Positions 9,051-48,412 of a DNA stretch of 64,000 bases are shown piece after piece (within the stretch, counting starts at the first letter, position 1; each line of letters begins with the position of its first letter). The position numbers and the translations under genes were made by a program. The DNA comes from Streptomyces spectabilis (GTDB lineage: Bacteria > Actinomycetota > Actinomycetes > Streptomycetales > Streptomycetaceae): positions 9,186,501-9,250,500 of the forward strand of contig NZ_CP023690.1 of NCBI RefSeq assembly GCF_008704795.1, written 5' to 3'. A model generated the notes under the pieces. It made no database searches, had not been told where the DNA came from, and saw nothing but the letters and a program-made list of their open reading frames with translations.

Positions 9051-9557
9051 ATGCGGACAAGGCGGCGCGTCAGGGGCGCGGGCGCGGTGGGCCTCACAGT
9101 GGTCTTCTTGGCCTGCGGCGTGTCGGGGTGCGGGGGAGGCGCCCCCGGCGGAGGGGCCCCGACGGACCCGCGCGGCGGCTCCGGACTGCCGGCGTCCTCC
9201 TCGCTCACCTCCGCCCGGTCCGGTGATTCCGGCACGGACTCGTCCGGCGACCGCGGCGGCGGAGACAGCGGTGGGGGAGCCGAGGGCGGAGACGACATTC
9301 CGCCGGTCTCCGCGCCACCCGTCGCGCCGGGGAACACGGGCGGGGGCACCGGCGGCATCGGTGTGTACCCCAGCGGAGACACCGGCGGCACCGGAGGCGG
9401 GCACCAGACCGCTTCCGCCGGGCTTTCCGGGGGCGCCACCACCGACCCTCCGCCGCCGTGTGCCGATCCGGTCGCCACCGCCGACGCCTCCTGCCCGCCG
9501 CCGTCCACGCCCGGAGCTTCGGAGAACGTTCCGCCCACGGCGGACGACGGGTCCTGA
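9051..9557 (+). CDS. Gly/Ser/Pro-rich lipoprotein
   Basis: A 168-residue protein starts MRTRRRVRGAGAVGLTVVFLACGVSGCGGG: a basic n-region, a hydrophobic core and a lipobox (VSGC) that predicts lipidation at Cys23 and extracellular anchoring. The remainder is low-complexity Gly, Ser, Asp and Pro with four scattered Cys near the C-terminus and no recognised fold. The stop codon is 7 bp before the ATG of the next membrane protein gene, so the two form a pair. It may be a wall-spanning linker or partner of that protein; function unknown. Confidence 0.65.
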   Translation: MRTRRRVRGAGAVGLTVVFLACGVSGCGGGAPGGGAPTDPRGGSGLPASSSLTSARSGDSGTDSSGDRGGGDSGGGAEGGDDIPPVSAPPVAPGNTGGGTGGIGVYPSGDTGGTGGGHQTASAGLSGGATTDPPPPCADPVATADASCPPPSTPGASENVPPTADDGS

Positions 9558-38699: not shown

Positions 38700-38945
38700 G
38701 TGGCCGACAGCACCACCACTCAGCAGCATCCGCTCGCGGGCTGGGAGAAGCCGGACCTGGACCTCAGCGTGGCCGATTGGCGGTCGAGCAGCGACGGCCG
38801 CGGGGACGTGCAGATCGCCTTCGTCGAGGGCTTCATCGCGATGCGCAACAGCGGGCGCCCGGAGAGCCCTTCGCTGATCTTCACGCCCGCGGAGTGGGGC
38901 GCGTTCGTGCACGGGGCCCGCGAGGGCCGCTTCGACCTGACGTGA
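38700..38945 (+). CDS. DUF397 domain protein
   Basis: The 81-residue protein has the DUF397 pattern: DWRSSSDGRGDVQIAFVEGFIAMRNSGRPESPSLIFTPAEWGAFVHGAREGRFDLT, with the ending FTPAEWxAFVxGAxxGEFD. DUF397 proteins usually lie next to a XRE-type HTH gene as possible toxin-antitoxin-like pairs or SARP-linked regulators. No HTH partner is adjacent here. GTG 38700 has GGGAGGAGC upstream. A strong hairpin follows its stop codon. Confidence 0.85.
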   Translation: MADSTTTQQHPLAGWEKPDLDLSVADWRSSSDGRGDVQIAFVEGFIAMRNSGRPESPSLIFTPAEWGAFVHGAREGRFDLT

Positions 38946-40331: not shown

Positions 40332-40470
40332 CCTGATACCTCCGGAAATCGCCCGACCGACGGTATGCACTCGAACGGAACGCGGGCGGCGAGTCAAGGG
40401 GGCGAAACGGTTGCCCGCGACCTTACGGAATCGTCAACTCCCCTATCTGAAGGGAGACTTGATCTGCACA

Positions 40471-40872
40471 ATGCTTCCTGTGCCGCATTACGACTACCTG
40501 GAGTTCACCCTTGACGACGGAGTACGCGTCCGTCTGGAGCTGGCCCCCGCGGGGGAGGCTCCCGCCGCCGCGCCCGACGGGACGGAGGCCGACCTGCCGG
40601 GCGGCATCTCCGGCGTGACGCCCGTGGGGCGCGGGGTGCGCGTGGGCACGCTCGCCACGGACGCGCTGCGCACCGTGCTGAGCCCGCTGGGGCCCGTCCT
40701 GCAACAGGTGCACGACGCCGTGCGCGGCATCCCCGACCCGCCCCGGGAACTCTCCGTCGACTTCGGCGTCCAGATCGGCCAGGACCTGCGCCTCGGCATC
40801 GTCGGCGCGGGCGGCCAGGCGAGCATGACCGTATCGGCGACCTGGCAGCTGTCCCCGCGGACCGAGAGATGA
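40471..40872 (+). CDS. Trypsin-co-occurring domain 1 protein (Trypco1, CU044_2847 type)
   Basis: A 133-residue protein starts LPVPHYDYLEFTLDDGVRVRLELAP and ends ELSVDFGVQIGQDLRLGIVGAGGQASMTVSATWQL. This is the pattern of CU044_2847/Trypco1 proteins: an N-terminal beta-strand pair, a middle helical stretch and a C-terminal VxFGVxI..G....V strand set. They occur next to trypsin or caspase effectors and probably act as regulatory partners. GGGAG is about 15 nt before the ATG, so the start may be slightly different. Its stop overlaps the trypsin-VMAP gene by ATGA. Confidence 0.75.
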   Translation: MLPVPHYDYLEFTLDDGVRVRLELAPAGEAPAAAPDGTEADLPGGISGVTPVGRGVRVGTLATDALRTVLSPLGPVLQQVHDAVRGIPDPPRELSVDFGVQIGQDLRLGIVGAGGQASMTVSATWQLSPRTER

Positions 40873-43130
40873 GCTGGTTCACGGCGACCGACGGCGACCG
40901 GTACGCGGACGCCCGTGGAGCCCTGGTGCGGGTCCTGAGCGCGGACCGGGCGCGCACCGCGGGCGCGGGCGTCTACCTCTGCGGGCGCACCCTTCTGACC
41001 TGCGCGCACGTGGTCAACGCGGCCCTGGGGCACCGCATGCTCAGTGCACGGGACCCCGGCGGCGTCACGCTGGACGTGTCCTTCCCCGTGCTCTCCGCCG
41101 CCGCGCCGCGCCCCGCCCGCCTGGTGGCGTGGATACCACCCCGCGCGCACCACCTCGGCCCGGTCCCCGACGGCTCCCTGGAGTGGGCGGGCGACCTGGC
41201 CGTCCTGGAGCTGGGGGAGGAGCCCCCGCCGCCCGTCGGCCCCGTCCGCTGGCTGGAGATGGCGCGGGGGCAGGACGTCAGGGCCTGGTACGGCGGCGGG
41301 CAGCCGTTCTCCTACGCCGACGTGCGCGTGGCCGCGTACGACGACGGCATCGGCTACCTCGACGGACAGCTGTCGGGCGCCGCCGTCGACGAGGGCTACA
41401 GCGGCGGGCCCCTGTGGTGCGTCGCCGACGGCGCGGCCGTGGGCCTGGTCATGGGCCGCATCACCGCCCCGGACGCCGCCCTGTCCGCCCAGCACACGGT
41501 CCGGCGCAGCTGGGGCCTCGGCTGGCAGTCCGTGCTGCTCGAACTGCGCCGCGCCGGGGCCCTGCCCGAGGCGTACCTGTCCGGCCTCGCGCGCTCCCCG
41601 GCGCCGGTGCCCGGTGCCGACCCCGACTCCTCCGAGACGGTACGGGACATGATGGTCGGCCCGCTGCACCTGCTGCTCGGCGACCCCGCGGCCCGCACCG
41701 CCCACGCCACCGCGCTCGCGGGCGAACTCGGCCTGCGCGCCCCCGCCGACGGCACCGCTCCCGCCGTCGCCGACCTCGCCCAGCTGCTCACCCGCACCGA
41801 GCGGGCACTGCCCACCCTGGCCGAGTCCCTCGCCCCCACCGTGGCCGACGACCCGCGCGGCCGCGGCGAACTCGACCGGCTGCTCGCCCTGGGGCGCCTG
41901 ACCGGCGCGGCCCGGCTGCTCTCGGTGGCCGAACACCGGCTGCTGCGCGCCAAGTTCGAGCACCTGTGCCGGCACGACCCCGGCCTGCTGCACCGGGCCG
42001 CCACCGCCGCCCTGCCCTACCTGGACCTGCCGCACTCCCTGCACGCGGCCCGGCTCGCGCCCGCCGCCGTCGACGGAGTGCTGCGCGAGCTGGAGACCTG
42101 GCCGGGCGACAGCTCCCCGGTGCCCGAAGAGACGCCGCGCCTTCCCGCCCTTCTGCGCGTCGTCGAGTACGTGGCGGCCGAGACCGGCGGCCTGGCCTGC
42201 CGGGCCCTGCAGGAGTGGAGCGGCCGGGTCGCCGCGCGCCTCGGCATCCACGCCTCGGCGCTGCGCGAGCGCCGCGCCGACGCCGAACGCTGGTCGCAGC
42301 GGTCCGCCGCGGCCGGTGCCCGCATCCTGGTGGAGCTCGACCGGCACGCCAAGGACCCCGCCGACCACTACCGCTGCGCGGTCTGGCGACTGCGCGCCGA
42401 CGGCACCGCGGCCCGCGCCGTCACCGGCACCGAACGGCCCCGCGCCGGACGCGAGATCGCCCGGCTGATCCGGGAGATCGCGGGCGGCACCGAGGGCGCC
42501 GAGCGGGGAGTGGCCCTGGTCGCGGTCTCCGTACCGCCGGACGCGCTGGAGCTGGCCGTGGACGAGTGGGACGGGGCGGGCGTCGACGAATACATCCCCG
42601 CGCCGCTCGGCGAGGACTTCCACCTCATCCTGCGCTGCCCGCGGCTGCGGCGGCGCTCCCGCACCGGCGCCGTCGACCTCACCCGGCGCTGGAACGCCCG
42701 CCACCGCGGTGACCCGCTGCGCGCCGACCGCAGCGTCGGCGGCCGGGCGGGACTCATCGGCCTGCTCAAGACGGTCCACCGGGACACCGCCCGCGTCCTG
42801 GTCCAGGGCACGGCGGCCCAGCGCGGTGAACTGCTCCCCGTCTGCCTGGTGATGGGCGTGCCCATCGTGCTGTGGGACCGCGGTCCCCGCGCCCCGGGGG
42901 AGGGCGCGGACCTCGGCATGCTCACGCCCGACGGGCCCGTCGACCAACTCCCCGAACGGGTCCGGCACTTCCGCGTCCGCGCGTACGCCGACGCGCTGAC
43001 CGGCAGCCGCCCCGCGCTGGTGTGGGAGGACATCGAGCTGCCGCTGCCCGACGAACTGCAGCTCGCCGACCCCGCGGAGGGGCTGACAGGACCCGCGGAC
43101 CCGGCCGAGGGAACGGAGCAGGCGACATGA
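40869..43130 (+). CDS. Trypsin-like protease fused to VMAP domain
   Basis: The 753-residue protein has an N-terminal chymotrypsin fold (1-215), with triad His47 in LTCAHVV, Asp109 in AGDLAVLEL and Ser178 in YSGGPLWC. The remaining 540 residues are helical and include RARRLL.. and FHLILRCPRLRRRSRTGAVDLTRRW, fitting the VMAP middle and C-terminal regions of vWA-MoxR-associated proteins. In such ternary systems a protease effector is coupled to MoxR and vWA partners. All triad residues are intact. It overlaps its neighbours on both sides by ATGA. Confidence 0.85.
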   Translation: MSWFTATDGDRYADARGALVRVLSADRARTAGAGVYLCGRTLLTCAHVVNAALGHRMLSARDPGGVTLDVSFPVLSAAAPRPARLVAWIPPRAHHLGPVPDGSLEWAGDLAVLELGEEPPPPVGPVRWLEMARGQDVRAWYGGGQPFSYADVRVAAYDDGIGYLDGQLSGAAVDEGYSGGPLWCVADGAAVGLVMGRITAPDAALSAQHTVRRSWGLGWQSVLLELRRAGALPEAYLSGLARSPAPVPGADPDSSETVRDMMVGPLHLLLGDPAARTAHATALAGELGLRAPADGTAPAVADLAQLLTRTERALPTLAESLAPTVADDPRGRGELDRLLALGRLTGAARLLSVAEHRLLRAKFEHLCRHDPGLLHRAATAALPYLDLPHSLHAARLAPAAVDGVLRELETWPGDSSPVPEETPRLPALLRVVEYVAAETGGLACRALQEWSGRVAARLGIHASALRERRADAERWSQRSAAAGARILVELDRHAKDPADHYRCAVWRLRADGTAARAVTGTERPRAGREIARLIREIAGGTEGAERGVALVAVSVPPDALELAVDEWDGAGVDEYIPAPLGEDFHLILRCPRLRRRSRTGAVDLTRRWNARHRGDPLRADRSVGGRAGLIGLLKTVHRDTARVLVQGTAAQRGELLPVCLVMGVPIVLWDRGPRAPGEGADLGMLTPDGPVDQLPERVRHFRVRAYADALTGSRPALVWEDIELPLPDELQLADPAEGLTGPADPAEGTEQAT

Positions 43131-44077
43131 ACGAGCGCGACGGATGGCGGCTGTTCCGCGGCGACCGGGTGGCCCGGCGGGTGGAGCTGCCCGAGGCCCC
43201 GCCCTGGCGCCGGTTCCCCGACGGCTCCGGGGCCCGCCCCCGGCCCCGCCCCTACCTCATCGGACGCGCCGAGGCGGATGTCGTGAGCGCCGCCCTTCAC
43301 CTGCGCCGCCCCCTGCTCGTCACCGGTCACCCCGGCACCGGCAAGTCGTCGCTCGCGCACGCCGTCGCCCACGAACTCACCCTCGGGCCGGTGCTCCAGT
43401 GGGCCGTCAACAGCCGTTCGGCCCTCAAGGAGGCCCTGTACGGCTACGACGCCATCGGCCGGCTGCGCGAGACCCATCTGCGCCAGGAGCGCGGCGCGGC
43501 GGAGCCGGGCATCGGCACCTTCGTCCGCCTCGGCCCGCTCGGCACGGCCCTGGTGCCCCGCGACCGCCCCCGCGTCCTGCTCGTCGACGAGCTCGACAAG
43601 GGCGACGTGGACCTGCCCAACGACCTCCTGACGGTGTTCGAGGAGGGCGAGTTCGAGATCCCGGAGCTGTCCCGGCTCCCCGACGACCAGTCCGAGGTGT
43701 CGGTCCTCACCCACGGCACGGACGGCGAATGGGTCACGGTCACCCGCGGCCGGGTGCGCTGCCGCGAGTTCCCCGTGGTGGTGATCACCAGCAACGGCGA
43801 GCGCGACTTCCCGCCCGCCTTCATGCGCCGCTGCGTACGCCTGGCCCTGCCGGACCCCGACGAGGCCCGGCTGCGCGAGATCGTGTCGGCACACCTAGGT
43901 GAGGAGGCGCTGGCCGGGATGGACGACCTCCTCCACGCCTTCCTCAACCGCCGCGCCCCCGGTGAACTGGCCACGGACCAGCTGCTCAACGCCGTGTTCC
44001 TGCGCAAGGGCGGCGTCGACCTGGACGCCGAGGGGCTCCTGGACGCGGTGCTGCACCGCCTCGGCGGAGCGCTGTAG
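43127..44077 (+). CDS. MoxR-type AAA+ ATPase
   Basis: The 316-residue ATPase has Walker A GHPGTGKSSLAHA near residue 70, Walker B RVLLVDELDKGD near 155 and sensor 1 FPVVVITSNGER, followed by arginine-finger FPPAFMRRC and a lid domain. This matches MoxR-family AAA+ proteins that act as chaperone-like switches with vWA partners. It begins in the ATGA of the VMAP gene. Its stop TAG abuts the ATG of the giant fourth gene (TAGATG), so all four are one operon. Confidence 0.92.
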   Translation: MNERDGWRLFRGDRVARRVELPEAPPWRRFPDGSGARPRPRPYLIGRAEADVVSAALHLRRPLLVTGHPGTGKSSLAHAVAHELTLGPVLQWAVNSRSALKEALYGYDAIGRLRETHLRQERGAAEPGIGTFVRLGPLGTALVPRDRPRVLLVDELDKGDVDLPNDLLTVFEEGEFEIPELSRLPDDQSEVSVLTHGTDGEWVTVTRGRVRCREFPVVVITSNGERDFPPAFMRRCVRLALPDPDEARLREIVSAHLGEEALAGMDDLLHAFLNRRAPGELATDQLLNAVFLRKGGVDLDAEGLLDAVLHRLGGAL

Positions 44078-47000
44078 ATGCCACCCGGCCACGGGGACCC
44101 TTCGGCCGGGCGCCCGCGCGGGGTGCCGCCGCCCCGGCCACCTGGCGGCGAGCCGTCCGGCGGGGCCGCGCCGTCCGGCGGGGGTGTGCCGCCTGGTGGG
44201 GGTGAGTGGTCGCGTGGGGGTGTGTCGTCCGGTGGGGCTGTGCCTTCCGGGGGCGGTGAGTCGTCCGGCGGTGGTGTGCTGTCCGGCGGTGGTGTGTCGT
44301 CTGGTGGGGGTGAGTGGTCTGGTGGGGGTGTGTCGCTGGGTGGGGCTGCGCCGTCCGGCGGGGGTGTGACGCCCGGCGGTGGTGAATCGTCCTGTGGGGG
44401 TGAGTTGTCTGGTGAGGGTGTGCCGTCCGGCGGCGGTGAGCCGTCCACTGGGGGTGTGTCGCCCGGTGGGGCTGCGCCGAGCGGCGGTGGTGTGCTGTCC
44501 GGCGGTGGTGAATCGTCCTGTGGGGGTGAGTTGTCTGGTGAGGGTGTGTCGCCCGGTGAGGGTGTGCCGTCCGGCGGCGGTGAGCCGTCCACTGGGGGTG
44601 TGTCGCCGGGTGGGGATGCGTCGACCGGCGGTGGTGTGTCGTCCGGCGGTGGTGAATCGTCCCGTGGGGGTGAGCCGTTCGGCGGGGCTGCGCCGTTCGG
44701 CGGGGGTGTGCCGCCTAGTGGGGGTGAGTGGTCCTGTGGGGGTGATTCGCCCGGCGGGGATGTGTCGCCCGGTGAGGGTGTGCCGTCCGGCGGTGGTGAG
44801 TGGTCCTGTGGGGGTGATTCGCCCGGCGGGGATGTGTCGCCCGGTGAGGGTGGGCCGTCCAGCGGTGGTGAATCGTCCCGTGGGGGTGATTCGCCCGGTG
44901 AGGGTGTGCCGTTCGGCGGTGGTGAGTCGTCCCGCGGGGCTGCGCCGTCTGGCGGAGGGGTGTCGTCCCGCGGGGGTGTGGCGGCCGGCGGGGGCGTGGT
45001 GGACCGTGGCCGTGAGTCGTCTCCCGTGCTGCTCGGCCTGCTCGGTCGTCTTACCGGGCACGAGCTGTCCATCCACGAACTGCTCGACGCCGTCTGGCTC
45101 GCGGGACGCCTGCCCGCCGACGGGGACGCGCCCCTCGCCCGGGCGCTGTCCGGCACCGCCCTGCCCGCGCAGGGCCCCGGCCCTGCGGCGGAGCCCGCGC
45201 CCCCGGCCGACGCCCGCCCCGGGGACGGCGAACCCGCCGACGGCGGCAAGGCGCCGGGCACCCCGGCGCCACCCCCGCCACCGGCCCAGCTGCTCGGTGC
45301 CCTGCACGCGGCCGCGGCGGCCCGCAGCGCCCCCGAGTTCGCCCGGCTCGGAGCGGACGACCGGCTCCGGCCGGACGACGGCGCGCTCCCGGTGCGGGTG
45401 CCCGAGGAGAAGGCGCTGGGCGACGAGGAGCTGCGCTTCGGCCGGGCGCTGCGGCTCCTGAAGCAGCCCCAGCCGCACCCGCACCGGCGCGAGTTCGATG
45501 AGGCGGCCACGGCGGCGGCTCTCGCCGAGACCGGCCTGCCCGACGTGGTGACCCGGCCCGCGCGGCAGCGCTGGCTCGACCTGGTGCTGCTCATCGACGA
45601 CGGCATCTCGATGCTCCTGTGGCGGCGCCTCGCGACCGAGCTGCGCGCCCTCCTGGAGCGCCTCGGCGCGTTCCGCGGCATCCGGGTGCTCGGCCTGGAC
45701 ACACGCACCCGGCGGGCACCGCTGCTGCGCGCCCGCCCCTTCGACGCCAACTCCGCGCTGCTGTCCCCGGCGTCGGCCGTCGACCCCTCCGGCGGCACCC
45801 TCGTCCTGGTCATCAGCGACGGCGTCGGCGCCTGCTGGCGCGACGGGCGCATGCGCGGGGCGCTCGGCCGCTGGGCACGCCAGGGCCCGACCGCCATCCT
45901 GCACGCCCTGCCCGCCCATCTGTGGGGCGCCTCCGGCATCCGCTCCGAGCCCTGGCTGGTGACCACCCGGCGCCGGGGCGCCGCCAACGACACCTGGTAC
46001 GTGTCCGACCCGCTGCTGCCCTCCGGGCTCGGCGAGGACTTCACGGACATCCCCGTACCGGTTCTCGAACCGTACCCACCGGCCGTCGCCGCCTGGGCGC
46101 GGCTCGTGGCCTCGCCCGGCGCGAGCACGGAGCTGCCCCTGCTGGTCCCGTCGCACGCGCCGACGCCGCGCGGCCGGGCCGACACGCGGGGCTCCGACGC
46201 GGCCACCGCCGTCCTGCGGTTCCGGGACGCCGCGTCGCCGGAGGCCTTCCGGCTCGCCGCGCACCTCGCCGCCGTGTCACCCCTGACCGTGCCCGTGATG
46301 CGGCTGGTCCAGGCCGCGGTCCCCTGGCGGACGGACACCGCGCACCTCGCCGAGGTGTTCCTCGGCGGGCTCATGCAGCAGGTCGAACCGGCCGACGCGC
46401 GGCTGCCCGCGCCGCACCGCAGGTTCGGATTCGCCCGCGACGCCCAGGACATCCTCCTCGACACGGCGTCCCCGATCGACCTGCTGCGCACGACCAGGAC
46501 CGTCACCGAGCGCCTGCGCGCGCTCGTCGGCCGCTCACCGGACTTCCCCGCCTGGCTCGCGCACCCCTCCGGCACCAGCGAACTCCTGCCCGGCACCCGG
46601 CCGTTCGCCTGGCTCGAGGACCGGCTCCTGACCCACATCGGCGCCCGCCCCATGGCGGCGCCCGCCCCGAACGGGGCCGCGGCGCAGGAGGAGGTCCTGC
46701 TGCCCTCGGGGCTTGAGGCCGCCCCGTCCTGGCTGCCCCTGCGCCTTCAGGACCTGCACGCCCTGGGCCCCTACACGCTGCTGCGCCGGGACGGCGCCGG
46801 CGGCACGCCCACCGCGTACATCGGCGAGGACGAGGACGGACTGCAGGTCCTGCTGCGCGTCTCCTCCTCGTCCGCCTCGCCGGTGGCGCGCGAACTGCTC
46901 GACAACGAGCGGGCCGCGCTGCGCCGCATGGACGGCGCGTACGCCCCCGCCGTCGTGGCCAGCGACCTGCGCGACGTGCCCGTGCCCTGGCTGGCGCTTC

Positions 47001-48412
47001 GCCTGGACACCCTCGGCGACGGGCGGCCCGCGCCGACGCTGCGCGCGGTCCTCGACGCGGCCGGACCGCTGGCGGGCACCCCGCTGTTCCTGTGGCTCGG
47101 CTGGCACCTGACGCGGGCGGTGAGCCGCAGCCACCGCCGGGGCATCGTGCACGGCTCGCTGACGCCGGGCGCGGTCCTGGTGACCGAGTCGACCCTGCAC
47201 GTCATCAGCTGGACGTCGGCGCGCATCGACGGCGCCTGGAGCGCCTCGGTCTCGGCGATGCCGCCCGCATCGCCCTACCGGGCGCCCGAGGTGACGTACT
47301 GGGGCGAGTCCCGCATCACGGCCGGGGACGTGTACTCCCTGGGGGCCGTCCTGCTGCACGCCGCGACCGGCCGCGCGTGGCAGGGCTACGAGCACGACGC
47401 CCTGCGGCGCGACCCGTGGTTCGGGGACCTCGACGGGGAACTCGCCGACCTCCTCCTGCGCTGCGTCACCGCCGAACCGGAGAGCAGACCCACGGTGCGG
47501 GAGGTGGCGGACGCCCTCAGCGCCCGGCTGCCCGGCGCACAGCCGTGGGAGGAGGCCGACGACGCGCTCGCCCCCGAGACGCCGCAGGAGCGGCAGAGCG
47601 CGGACGAGCCGGAGGACGACGACAGCGAGACCTGGACGCGCACCATCCGGGCGCCCCTGAACAAGCCGCTGCGGATCGTCCTCGTCGGCGTCAAGGACGG
47701 CGCGGGCTGCACCACGACGACCATGATGCTGGGCGCCGTCCTCGCCGACCAGCGCCAGGAGCGGGTCCTCGCGATCGACGCCGACAAGCACGCGGGACGG
47801 CACGTGCGCATCGGCGGCCGCGTCTTCCGCGGCACGTTCGCGGGCCTGACCGATCTGGCGGCCTCCCTGCCGGAGGTGCGCCGCTTCGAGGACCTCAGCC
47901 TGTTCCTTTCGCCGCACCGCTCAGGACTGACGGTCCTCGCGAACGACTCGGTGTCGCGTCCTTCGGCGGGCGGCCAGTACACGGACCAGGACTTCCGCGA
48001 GGTGCTGTGGGCGACGCGCCCGTACTTCCGCCTCACCCTGATCGACTCCGACAAGCCCGTGTCACTGGTCCTGGAGCACGCCGACCGCGTCGTCATCGTC
48101 TCGCGCGCCGACCCCGCGGGCCTGACCCAGGCCCAGCAGACCATGGACCGTCTCGTCACCCTGAACCGCCCCGACCTGGTGGAGGAGGCCGTCGTGGTCC
48201 TCAACCACAGCCGCCCCGCCGCCGGTTGGACCCTCGACTCGGCCAGTGTGCGCGCCCTGCGCTCGCGCTGCCGCGGCCTGGTGACCGTCCCGCGCGACGG
48301 CCACCTCGCCATGGCCAGCACCGTCGAACTGTCCTGGCTTACCCCCGTCGCCTACAAGGCCTACCTGCGCCTCGCGGCGCTGCTCCTGGGGCGGCGGCCG
48401 ATGTTCCCCTGA
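44078..48412 (+). CDS. Giant SAV_2336/vWA, pseudokinase and MinD-like fusion protein with Gly-rich repeat
   Basis: The 1,444-residue protein has, in order: a Pro-rich start; a long Gly-rich hexapeptide repeat (about residues 20-310); and a SAV_2336 N-terminal-like segment (LLGRLTGHELSIHELLDAVW). A vWA-like domain with LVLLIDDGISM near residue 505, a helical region to about 860, and a protein-kinase-like domain (about 885-1150) follow. HGSLTP at His1025 lacks the HRD Asp, and no DFG is seen, so it is probably a pseudokinase. The C-terminal SIMIBI/MinD-like domain has KDGAGCTTTT at 1206-1215, with Cys1211 where a Walker A Lys normally sits. It likely forms the regulatory vWA partner of MoxR. 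Confidence 0.83.
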   Translation: MPPGHGDPSAGRPRGVPPPRPPGGEPSGGAAPSGGGVPPGGGEWSRGGVSSGGAVPSGGGESSGGGVLSGGGVSSGGGEWSGGGVSLGGAAPSGGGVTPGGGESSCGGELSGEGVPSGGGEPSTGGVSPGGAAPSGGGVLSGGGESSCGGELSGEGVSPGEGVPSGGGEPSTGGVSPGGDASTGGGVSSGGGESSRGGEPFGGAAPFGGGVPPSGGEWSCGGDSPGGDVSPGEGVPSGGGEWSCGGDSPGGDVSPGEGGPSSGGESSRGGDSPGEGVPFGGGESSRGAAPSGGGVSSRGGVAAGGGVVDRGRESSPVLLGLLGRLTGHELSIHELLDAVWLAGRLPADGDAPLARALSGTALPAQGPGPAAEPAPPADARPGDGEPADGGKAPGTPAPPPPPAQLLGALHAAAAARSAPEFARLGADDRLRPDDGALPVRVPEEKALGDEELRFGRALRLLKQPQPHPHRREFDEAATAAALAETGLPDVVTRPARQRWLDLVLLIDDGISMLLWRRLATELRALLERLGAFRGIRVLGLDTRTRRAPLLRARPFDANSALLSPASAVDPSGGTLVLVISDGVGACWRDGRMRGALGRWARQGPTAILHALPAHLWGASGIRSEPWLVTTRRRGAANDTWYVSDPLLPSGLGEDFTDIPVPVLEPYPPAVAAWARLVASPGASTELPLLVPSHAPTPRGRADTRGSDAATAVLRFRDAASPEAFRLAAHLAAVSPLTVPVMRLVQAAVPWRTDTAHLAEVFLGGLMQQVEPADARLPAPHRRFGFARDAQDILLDTASPIDLLRTTRTVTERLRALVGRSPDFPAWLAHPSGTSELLPGTRPFAWLEDRLLTHIGARPMAAPAPNGAAAQEEVLLPSGLEAAPSWLPLRLQDLHALGPYTLLRRDGAGGTPTAYIGEDEDGLQVLLRVSSSSASPVARELLDNERAALRRMDGAYAPAVVASDLRDVPVPWLALRLDTLGDGRPAPTLRAVLDAAGPLAGTPLFLWLGWHLTRAVSRSHRRGIVHGSLTPGAVLVTESTLHVISWTSARIDGAWSASVSAMPPASPYRAPEVTYWGESRITAGDVYSLGAVLLHAATGRAWQGYEHDALRRDPWFGDLDGELADLLLRCVTAEPESRPTVREVADALSARLPGAQPWEEADDALAPETPQERQSADEPEDDDSETWTRTIRAPLNKPLRIVLVGVKDGAGCTTTTMMLGAVLADQRQERVLAIDADKHAGRHVRIGGRVFRGTFAGLTDLAASLPEVRRFEDLSLFLSPHRSGLTVLANDSVSRPSAGGQYTDQDFREVLWATRPYFRLTLIDSDKPVSLVLEHADRVVIVSRADPAGLTQAQQTMDRLVTLNRPDLVEEAVVVLNHSRPAAGWTLDSASVRALRSRCRGLVTVPRDGHLAMASTVELSWLTPVAYKAYLRLAALLLGRRPMFP
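44141..45010 (+). repeat. 18-bp tandem repeat encoding Gly-rich hexapeptides
   Basis: About 48 units of 18 bp encode variants of Gly-Gly-Gly-[Val/Glu]-x-Ser, for example TCCGGCGGTGGTGTGCTG. Runs of three to five G on the coding strand are dense, while stop codons are absent in every frame, so long spurious frames appear on both strands. The repeat is inside the giant conflict-system gene and may vary in length between strains. Confidence 0.85.

Follow-up and report, generated by a model that had tools for sequence, protein, structure and literature searches.

The 64,000-nucleotide stretch of the Streptomyces spectabilis genome analysed here (the window, whose positions serve as coordinates throughout) contains a four-gene operon at 40471..48412 that, judged from its sequence, is very probably a VMAP-type MoxR-vWA ternary system of the Trypco1-trypsin kind. 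Its last gene encodes a protein of 1,444 residues, in which a predicted vWA domain is followed by a degenerate kinase-like and a MinD/ParA-like domain, and whose predicted N-terminal leader is occupied by a long in-frame tandem array.

The four-gene operon

All four genes lie on the forward (+) strand, and the open reading frames and tight junctions described in the initial annotation were verified, namely ATGA at 40869, ATGA at 43127 and TAGATG at 44075. The first gene (40471..40872) encodes a Trypco1 protein of the CU044_2847 family with 133 residues, matched above cut-off by both PF19493 (68.6 bits, cut-off 24.6) and NF041216 (51.6 bits); an alternative in-frame TTG start is present 12 bases (four codons) upstream, at 40459. 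It is followed by the VMAP, MoxR and vWA genes in that order. The VMAP protein (40869..43130; 753 residues) combines a trypsin-like domain (about 40962-41447; Trypsin_2, 40 bits, cut-off 27.6) with a VMAP-C domain (about 42363-43031; PF20028, 113.4 bits, cut-off 27), a middle region sitting between the two. The third gene (43127..44077) specifies a MoxR-type AAA+ ATPase of 316 residues (AAA_5, 30.6 bits, cut-off 22), and the fourth (44078..48412) the SAV_2336/vWA component, which is matched by SAV_2336_NTERM (NF041121) at 378 bits against a cut-off of 200 over residues 333-817. The earlier assignment of the first three genes to the VMAP-type ternary systems is borne out by these matches, all of them above curated cut-offs, and the Trypco1 gene stands, as in known systems, beside a trypsin-bearing VMAP gene.

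The same gene order was sought in other genomes and was found in Streptomyces sp. NRRL B-1347 (locus L004), in Streptomyces sp. WAC 01529 (L007) and at a third locus (L006), while a further locus, L005, ends at its contig end. The three junctions of the window recur in L004 and L007, and those of L006 read GTGA, ATGA and TAG-C-GTG. His47, Asp109 and Ser178 of the VMAP trypsin-like domain, which we take from family knowledge to be the trypsin triad, are present in the window, L004, L006 and L007; on this residue-level comparison the triad is shown to be intact. In the MoxR protein both Walker A (GHPGTGKSS) and Walker B (LLVDE) are intact. Kaur et al. (PMC7159879) described two N-terminal motifs of VMAP-type MoxR proteins, WxhapG and PsWRxa, and both have counterparts here: WRLFRG and PPWRRF in the window, L004 and L007, and WRLFRG and PPWRQF in L006. 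The MoxR protein also gives a weak sequence match to midasin (E 6e-4). As a separate observation, MoxR (43127-44077) and the kinase segment of the fourth protein (46751-47542) show a weak likeness, far below cut-off, to the MADS defence proteins MadB and MAD6, and likewise to the MkoA and PD-T4-6 kinase models.

Domain architecture of the vWA protein

Downstream of the array, the fourth protein opens with an N-terminal helical extension, LTGHELSIHELLDAVWLA (45023..45151, +), which forms helices at model residues 2-44 and is conserved in relatives. The vWA domain (45569..46120, +) was not detected by Pfam and is visible in the predicted structure; its metal-site residues Asp507, Ser511 and Asp581, the two aspartates among them, are present in the window protein, and the metal-site residues are kept in 53 of 53 aligned rows. 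A helical domain (46175..46612, +) follows, at the place taken by the vWA-L linker domain in PMC8195603, a later paper which, in its available passages, adds relatives of the ternary system. Sequence searches with this helical piece gave no match, and a STAND-like identity remains a lead.

The effector end comprises a pseudokinase domain (46751..47542, +) and a MinD/ParA-like domain (47669..48388, +). Pkinase scores 26.1 on the former, below its cut-off of 31.7; the kinase fold is nonetheless clear in the predicted structure. Arg927, Ser1027, Ala1032 and Ser1044 replace the beta-3 Lys, the catalytic-loop Asp, the Asn and the DFG Asp in the columns that we presume to be catalytic, having assigned them by alignment with known kinase motifs, and the Lys, Asp and Asn occur together in 0 of 56 aligned rows. 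The MinD/ParA-like segment is matched below cut-off by CbiA (E 5e-4; 20.4 bits, cut-off 25.4) and AAA_31 (E 7e-4), and in some relatives it bears PF01656 or PF13614 labels; the structural match lists shown are filled by kinase matches, and the scores of the CbiA/AAA_31 fold in the window protein remain under the Pfam cut-offs. Its Walker A reads KDGAGCTT, with the first lysine (Lys1206) retained and the P-loop lysine replaced by Cys1211, a column in which lysine occurs in only 3 of 56 rows; because of this replacement the domain is named MinD/ParA-like only. As far as aligned residues can tell, the analysis shows both the kinase fold and the MinD/ParA-like domain to have lost catalytic residues. 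The vWA, kinase-like and MinD-like calls originally made on this protein hold, structure prediction having recovered the vWA and kinase folds; the accompanying domain search succeeded for SAV_2336_NTERM and failed to lift vWA, Pkinase or CbiA above cut-off. The initial suggestion that a single protein could unite sensing, restraint and switching is a hypothesis at this point; its kinase and MinD-like domains are both degenerate at catalytic positions.

A known layout and its distribution

The fused layout had been thought undescribed, and a novel fused regulator can be rejected, since the arrangement was published by Kaur et al. and is common. A search with the 1,444-residue chain found 344 relatives; among the best 120 that are listed, the kinase segment is matched in 119, the MinD segment in 109 and both in 108. 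The operon shares with the systems of Kaur et al. (PMC7159879) the VMAP-MoxR-vWA order, the placing of Trypco1 beside trypsin, the MoxR motifs, and a vWA domain followed by an effector end with inactive domains, including a kinase coupled to a C-terminal MinD/ParA domain. It differs from them in the 47-unit in-frame array of its N-terminal leader; the main text of that paper has no passage on repeat arrays under the terms low complexity, glycine, disordered or tandem. The window protein is likewise an evident relative of the SAV_2336 N-terminal domain-related proteins (NF041121), from which it departs in its leader: 338 residues precede the [LIV]WLA motif in the window, whereas the median is 33 and the maximum 210 in listed relatives (116 of the 120 contain the motif), with the proviso that annotated starts of some relatives may be too late, as in P0006.

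Three VMAP systems, differing in their effector ends, are encoded in the Streptomyces spectabilis genome, and the two besides this operon also possess trypsin. The second (L042, G000:C1:7641500-7653500) ends in AAA_16-TPR, and the third (L043, G000:C1:5511000-5524000) in NB-ARC-TPR, with EAD2 on its VMAP protein and on a separate trypsin gene. Differing effector ends in genomes with several VMAP systems were likewise noted by Kaur et al. (PMC7159879).

A minisatellite in the N-terminal leader

An in-frame minisatellite (44150..44995, +) separates the start that the gene has in common with relatives (TAG-ATG, MPP...) from the conserved helix LTGHELSIHELLDAVWLA. It consists of 47 contiguous units of 18 bp, 36 of them distinct, encoding VPSGGG-like hexapeptides. 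The array is in perfect register, without indels over 849 bp, and its TRF (Tandem Repeats Finder) score of 704 is surpassed only once, by an array scoring 794, in a sample of 800 kb from this genome. Codons 1, 5 and 6 have an invariant first base (47/47) and the other amino-acid-changing positions vary freely, a pattern that offers no argument for strong protein-level selection. Although long arrays are open to misassembly, the single-contig genome and the differences among most units make it less likely here. The idea of a mobile repeat or of a second copy was rejected, the array finding in its own genome one further match of 59 bp at 78% (with 40 of 204 initial candidates scored) and nothing at near identity in the plasmid collection; a phage origin was also set aside, as scanning viral contigs with a pattern brought up no relative. 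When residues 1-345 were searched against a protein database, nothing scored at E 0.001 in the 7,990 candidates retained, a result that we read as uninformative given the low-complexity words.

The array is not part of the standard layout and is instead a lineage-specific minisatellite. The leader of Streptomyces sp. MNP-20 (protein P0005, 94% identical) has no array copies, and that of L004 (96% identical), about 66 residues long, holds its own 18-bp-period array of 5.4 imperfect copies (score 99). The orthologous gene of L007 (85% identical) has a different in-frame array at the same place, of 33 bp x 17.8 without indels over 586 bp (L007 6287-6925), starting 14 bases past the A of the ATG. 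The public protein of this strain (P0006) begins (MSIHELL) downstream of the array, and its gene model start hides the leader array. A tree built with FastTree places the window beside L004 (0.99), with P0005 and P0007 next and L007 together with P0006 after them; because shorter-leader lineages separate the two arrays on this tree, the simplest reading is that those of the window and L007 grew in two separate events. The L007 unit matches the start of the sister (L004) leader at 25 of 33 positions, a level reached by 0 of 200 codon shuffles. Derivation of the window unit from that leader was also considered and is not shown: its consensus agrees at 14 of 18 positions, which 25 of 200 codon shuffles reach. 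Other SAV_2336 leaders carry arrays of 36 bp (L124), 45/75 bp (L095), 24/48 bp (L026) and 15 bp (L033), and short-unit repeat leaders were spotted by eye in P0087, P0092 and P0051. Taken together, this has the look of a disordered tail in which minisatellites have grown repeatedly and independently, and the roughly 285-residue Gly/Ser/Pro segment of the window protein is most likely a tolerated or minor tuning feature, not a sensor.

Array frequency, selection and the start of the fourth gene

The frequency of such arrays was assessed in 108 other leaders, a sample that includes 60 further loci from the genus survey and excludes the window, L004, L006, L007 and four loci whose profile match begins late (L015, L031, L036, L050). 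In-frame arrays score at least 300 in 2 of these leaders (L124, L095), at least 180 in 3 (with L026) and at least 100 in 5 (with L033 and L059); L111 was left out at the last threshold, its array lying about 700 bases upstream of the domain. The control consisted of 800 kb (2,500 N) of one genome, that of Streptomyces spectabilis itself, with thresholds picked after seeing the data. Inside control genes called by a GC3 (third-codon-position GC) rule there are 1, 2 and 12 arrays of in-frame length per 611 genes at scores of 300, 180 and 100, giving one-sided Fisher p values of 0.061, 0.026 and 0.097. Genes that carry repeats can escape this rule, and of the 4 control arrays with a score of at least 300, 3 lie outside called genes; with all in-frame-length arrays of the 800 kb counted, in called genes or not (4, 8 and 17), p is 0.22 at each threshold. 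These figures do not establish that SAV_2336 leaders are richer in arrays than other genes; the firm observation is that arrays built from different units recur at one leader site. That Streptomyces VMAP systems vary the vWA N-terminal tail through recurrent in-frame minisatellite growth, giving strain-specific length and sequence, we consider very unlikely, having lowered an already small estimate slightly because of the stricter control.

Two other explanations of the array were weighed. According to one, the repeat tail is the selected, rapidly varying part of the system, in-frame minisatellites adjusting the vWA component in length or valency from strain to strain, in a mutator role like that of the diversity-generating retroelements of other ternary systems. 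The occurrence of different units at the same place (18 bp x47 in the window, 33 bp x18 in L007, and those of L124, L095 and L026), the short-unit leaders seen by eye and the shorter-leader lineages between the window and L007 arrays all speak for it; the small numbers of array-bearing leaders with their p of 0.22, the free variation of amino-acid-changing positions and the tendency of disordered linkers to collect such arrays anyway make it scarcely probable. In the available passages on the retroelement-diversified systems (PMC10907252), the rapidly varying part is likewise on the vWA protein of VMAP-type systems, but there a reverse transcriptase hypermutates C-type lectin domains, whereas the window has a tandem array varying an N-terminal tail; a Pfam scan of ten neighbours, which left one of them without any hit, gave no reverse transcriptase. 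Kaur et al. (PMC7159879) saw no mutator element in actinobacteria. The tandem repeats of Borg elements, as far as the accessible text of PMC9879509 describes them, are also recent, independently arising arrays that make disordered regions, but they belong to archaeal extrachromosomal elements and unrelated proteins. The other explanation holds the array to be an untranslated intergenic minisatellite, the fourth gene starting downstream, at a GTG pair near 44996 or near the LSIHELL helix. It draws on the start of P0006 past the WAC 01529 array and on the third-codon-position GC of 0.67 in the array vs 0.94-0.96 farther along the gene. Yet the MoxR gene runs into TAG-ATG in the window, L004 and L007, and relatives repeatedly show MPP-type N-termini whether or not they carry an array. 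That ATG is preceded at a distance of 8 bases by GGAG in the window and in L004, and by GGGG in L007, and both unit lengths are multiples of 3 in a frame open throughout and free of indels, so that a downstream start appears improbable.

Proposed mechanism and function

The mechanism that we tentatively propose, as a possibility, draws on the summary that Kaur et al. give of MoxR-vWA literature and on the presence of a live protease beside dead effectors. The VMAP trypsin would be kept inactive in a complex with a MoxR ring and the vWA protein, Trypco1 serving as adaptor or inhibitor. Capture of an invader-derived or damaged protein at the vWA site might trigger ATP hydrolysis by MoxR and remodelling of the complex, which would free the peptidase and expose the pseudokinase/MinD-like arm; the latter could then bind and jam a partner, for example kinase- or ParA/MinD-dependent machinery, in a dominant-negative rather than enzymatic manner. 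The outcome would be killing or arrest of the infected hyphal compartment. The disordered leader, growing in steps of 18 bp, would change in length while leaving the frame unchanged. The family assignment and this mechanism, scored as one, are on balance somewhat favoured.

Several findings weigh against this interpretation. Experiments on any VMAP system were not found in the open-access literature searched, so defence is a prediction, as is translation of the array into an N-terminal tail, and PMC10907252, in the text available, states that its own proposal remains to be tested. PADLOC matched no family to the Trypco1 or VMAP proteins, and MoxR and the fourth protein match its defence ATPase/kinase models only in generic domains (best MkoA, E 1.6e-18, residues 897-1154); the NCBIfam scores of MadB (59.4, cut-off 475) and MAD6 (47.9, cut-off 460) are far too low. 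VMAP-M0 reaches 18.6 bits in the 753-residue protein, under its cut-off of 25.9, and the [D/E]xxx[D/E]xxxa motif that Kaur et al. (PMC7159879) place in the N-terminal extension of VMAP vWA proteins is matched literally only inside the repeat array, the N-terminal helix reading ELLDxxWLA. Of 81 genomes sampled from the genus, moreover, 72 have SAV_2336 genes, which is high for a defence gene and, together with the mostly metabolic nature of those neighbours that have Pfam hits, would suit a housekeeping switch, for protein quality or development, in hyphal bacteria. We think such a role unlikely, given that the three systems of the genome differ in their effector ends, that presence beyond the genus is patchy (28 of 41 genomes of a wider set, the own genome included), that Kaur et al. 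(PMC7159879) argue for fast evolution, and that VMAP-type genes are reported near type III CRISPR loci in the accessible part of PMC10910872.

Genomic context

On the 9.81-Mb contig the locus is about 0.58 Mb, or about 6% of the length, away from one end, in line with the preference of VMAP systems for chromosome arms reported in the available passages of Kaur et al. (PMC7159879), and this location was counted in favour of a ternary conflict system. Upstream are genes for an enoyl-CoA hydratase, a ChsH2-type OB protein, a thiolase, a DUF397 protein and, on the opposite strand, a class-V aminotransferase; downstream, on the opposite strand, are an MMPL transporter, an M4 peptidase and an amidohydrolase. 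Mobile-element families were absent from the Pfam hits of the same ten neighbours. The DUF397 gene (38700-38945, 81 residues) was not counted as part of the operon because the opposite-strand aminotransferase gene intervenes; DUF397 genes occur near about 4% of VMAP systems according to Kaur et al. (PMC7159879). An open reading frame of the same size, a candidate counterpart, is seen upstream in L004 (1347-1592). Elsewhere in the window, ARAGORN calls a tRNA-Ala (GGC) at 9101-9200, whose 100 bases are longer than usual for tRNA-Ala.

Implications

As far as the literature found allows us to say, the operon is one more example of a widespread and experimentally uncharacterised class, and the giant size of its vWA protein is in large measure accounted for by the repeat tail. 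Close strains provide a natural tail-length series for asking whether tail length matters. Should variation of the tail by minisatellite growth prove true, it would represent a repeat-based diversification route in actinobacteria, parallel to the retroelements in cyanobacteria and Thiohalocapsa.
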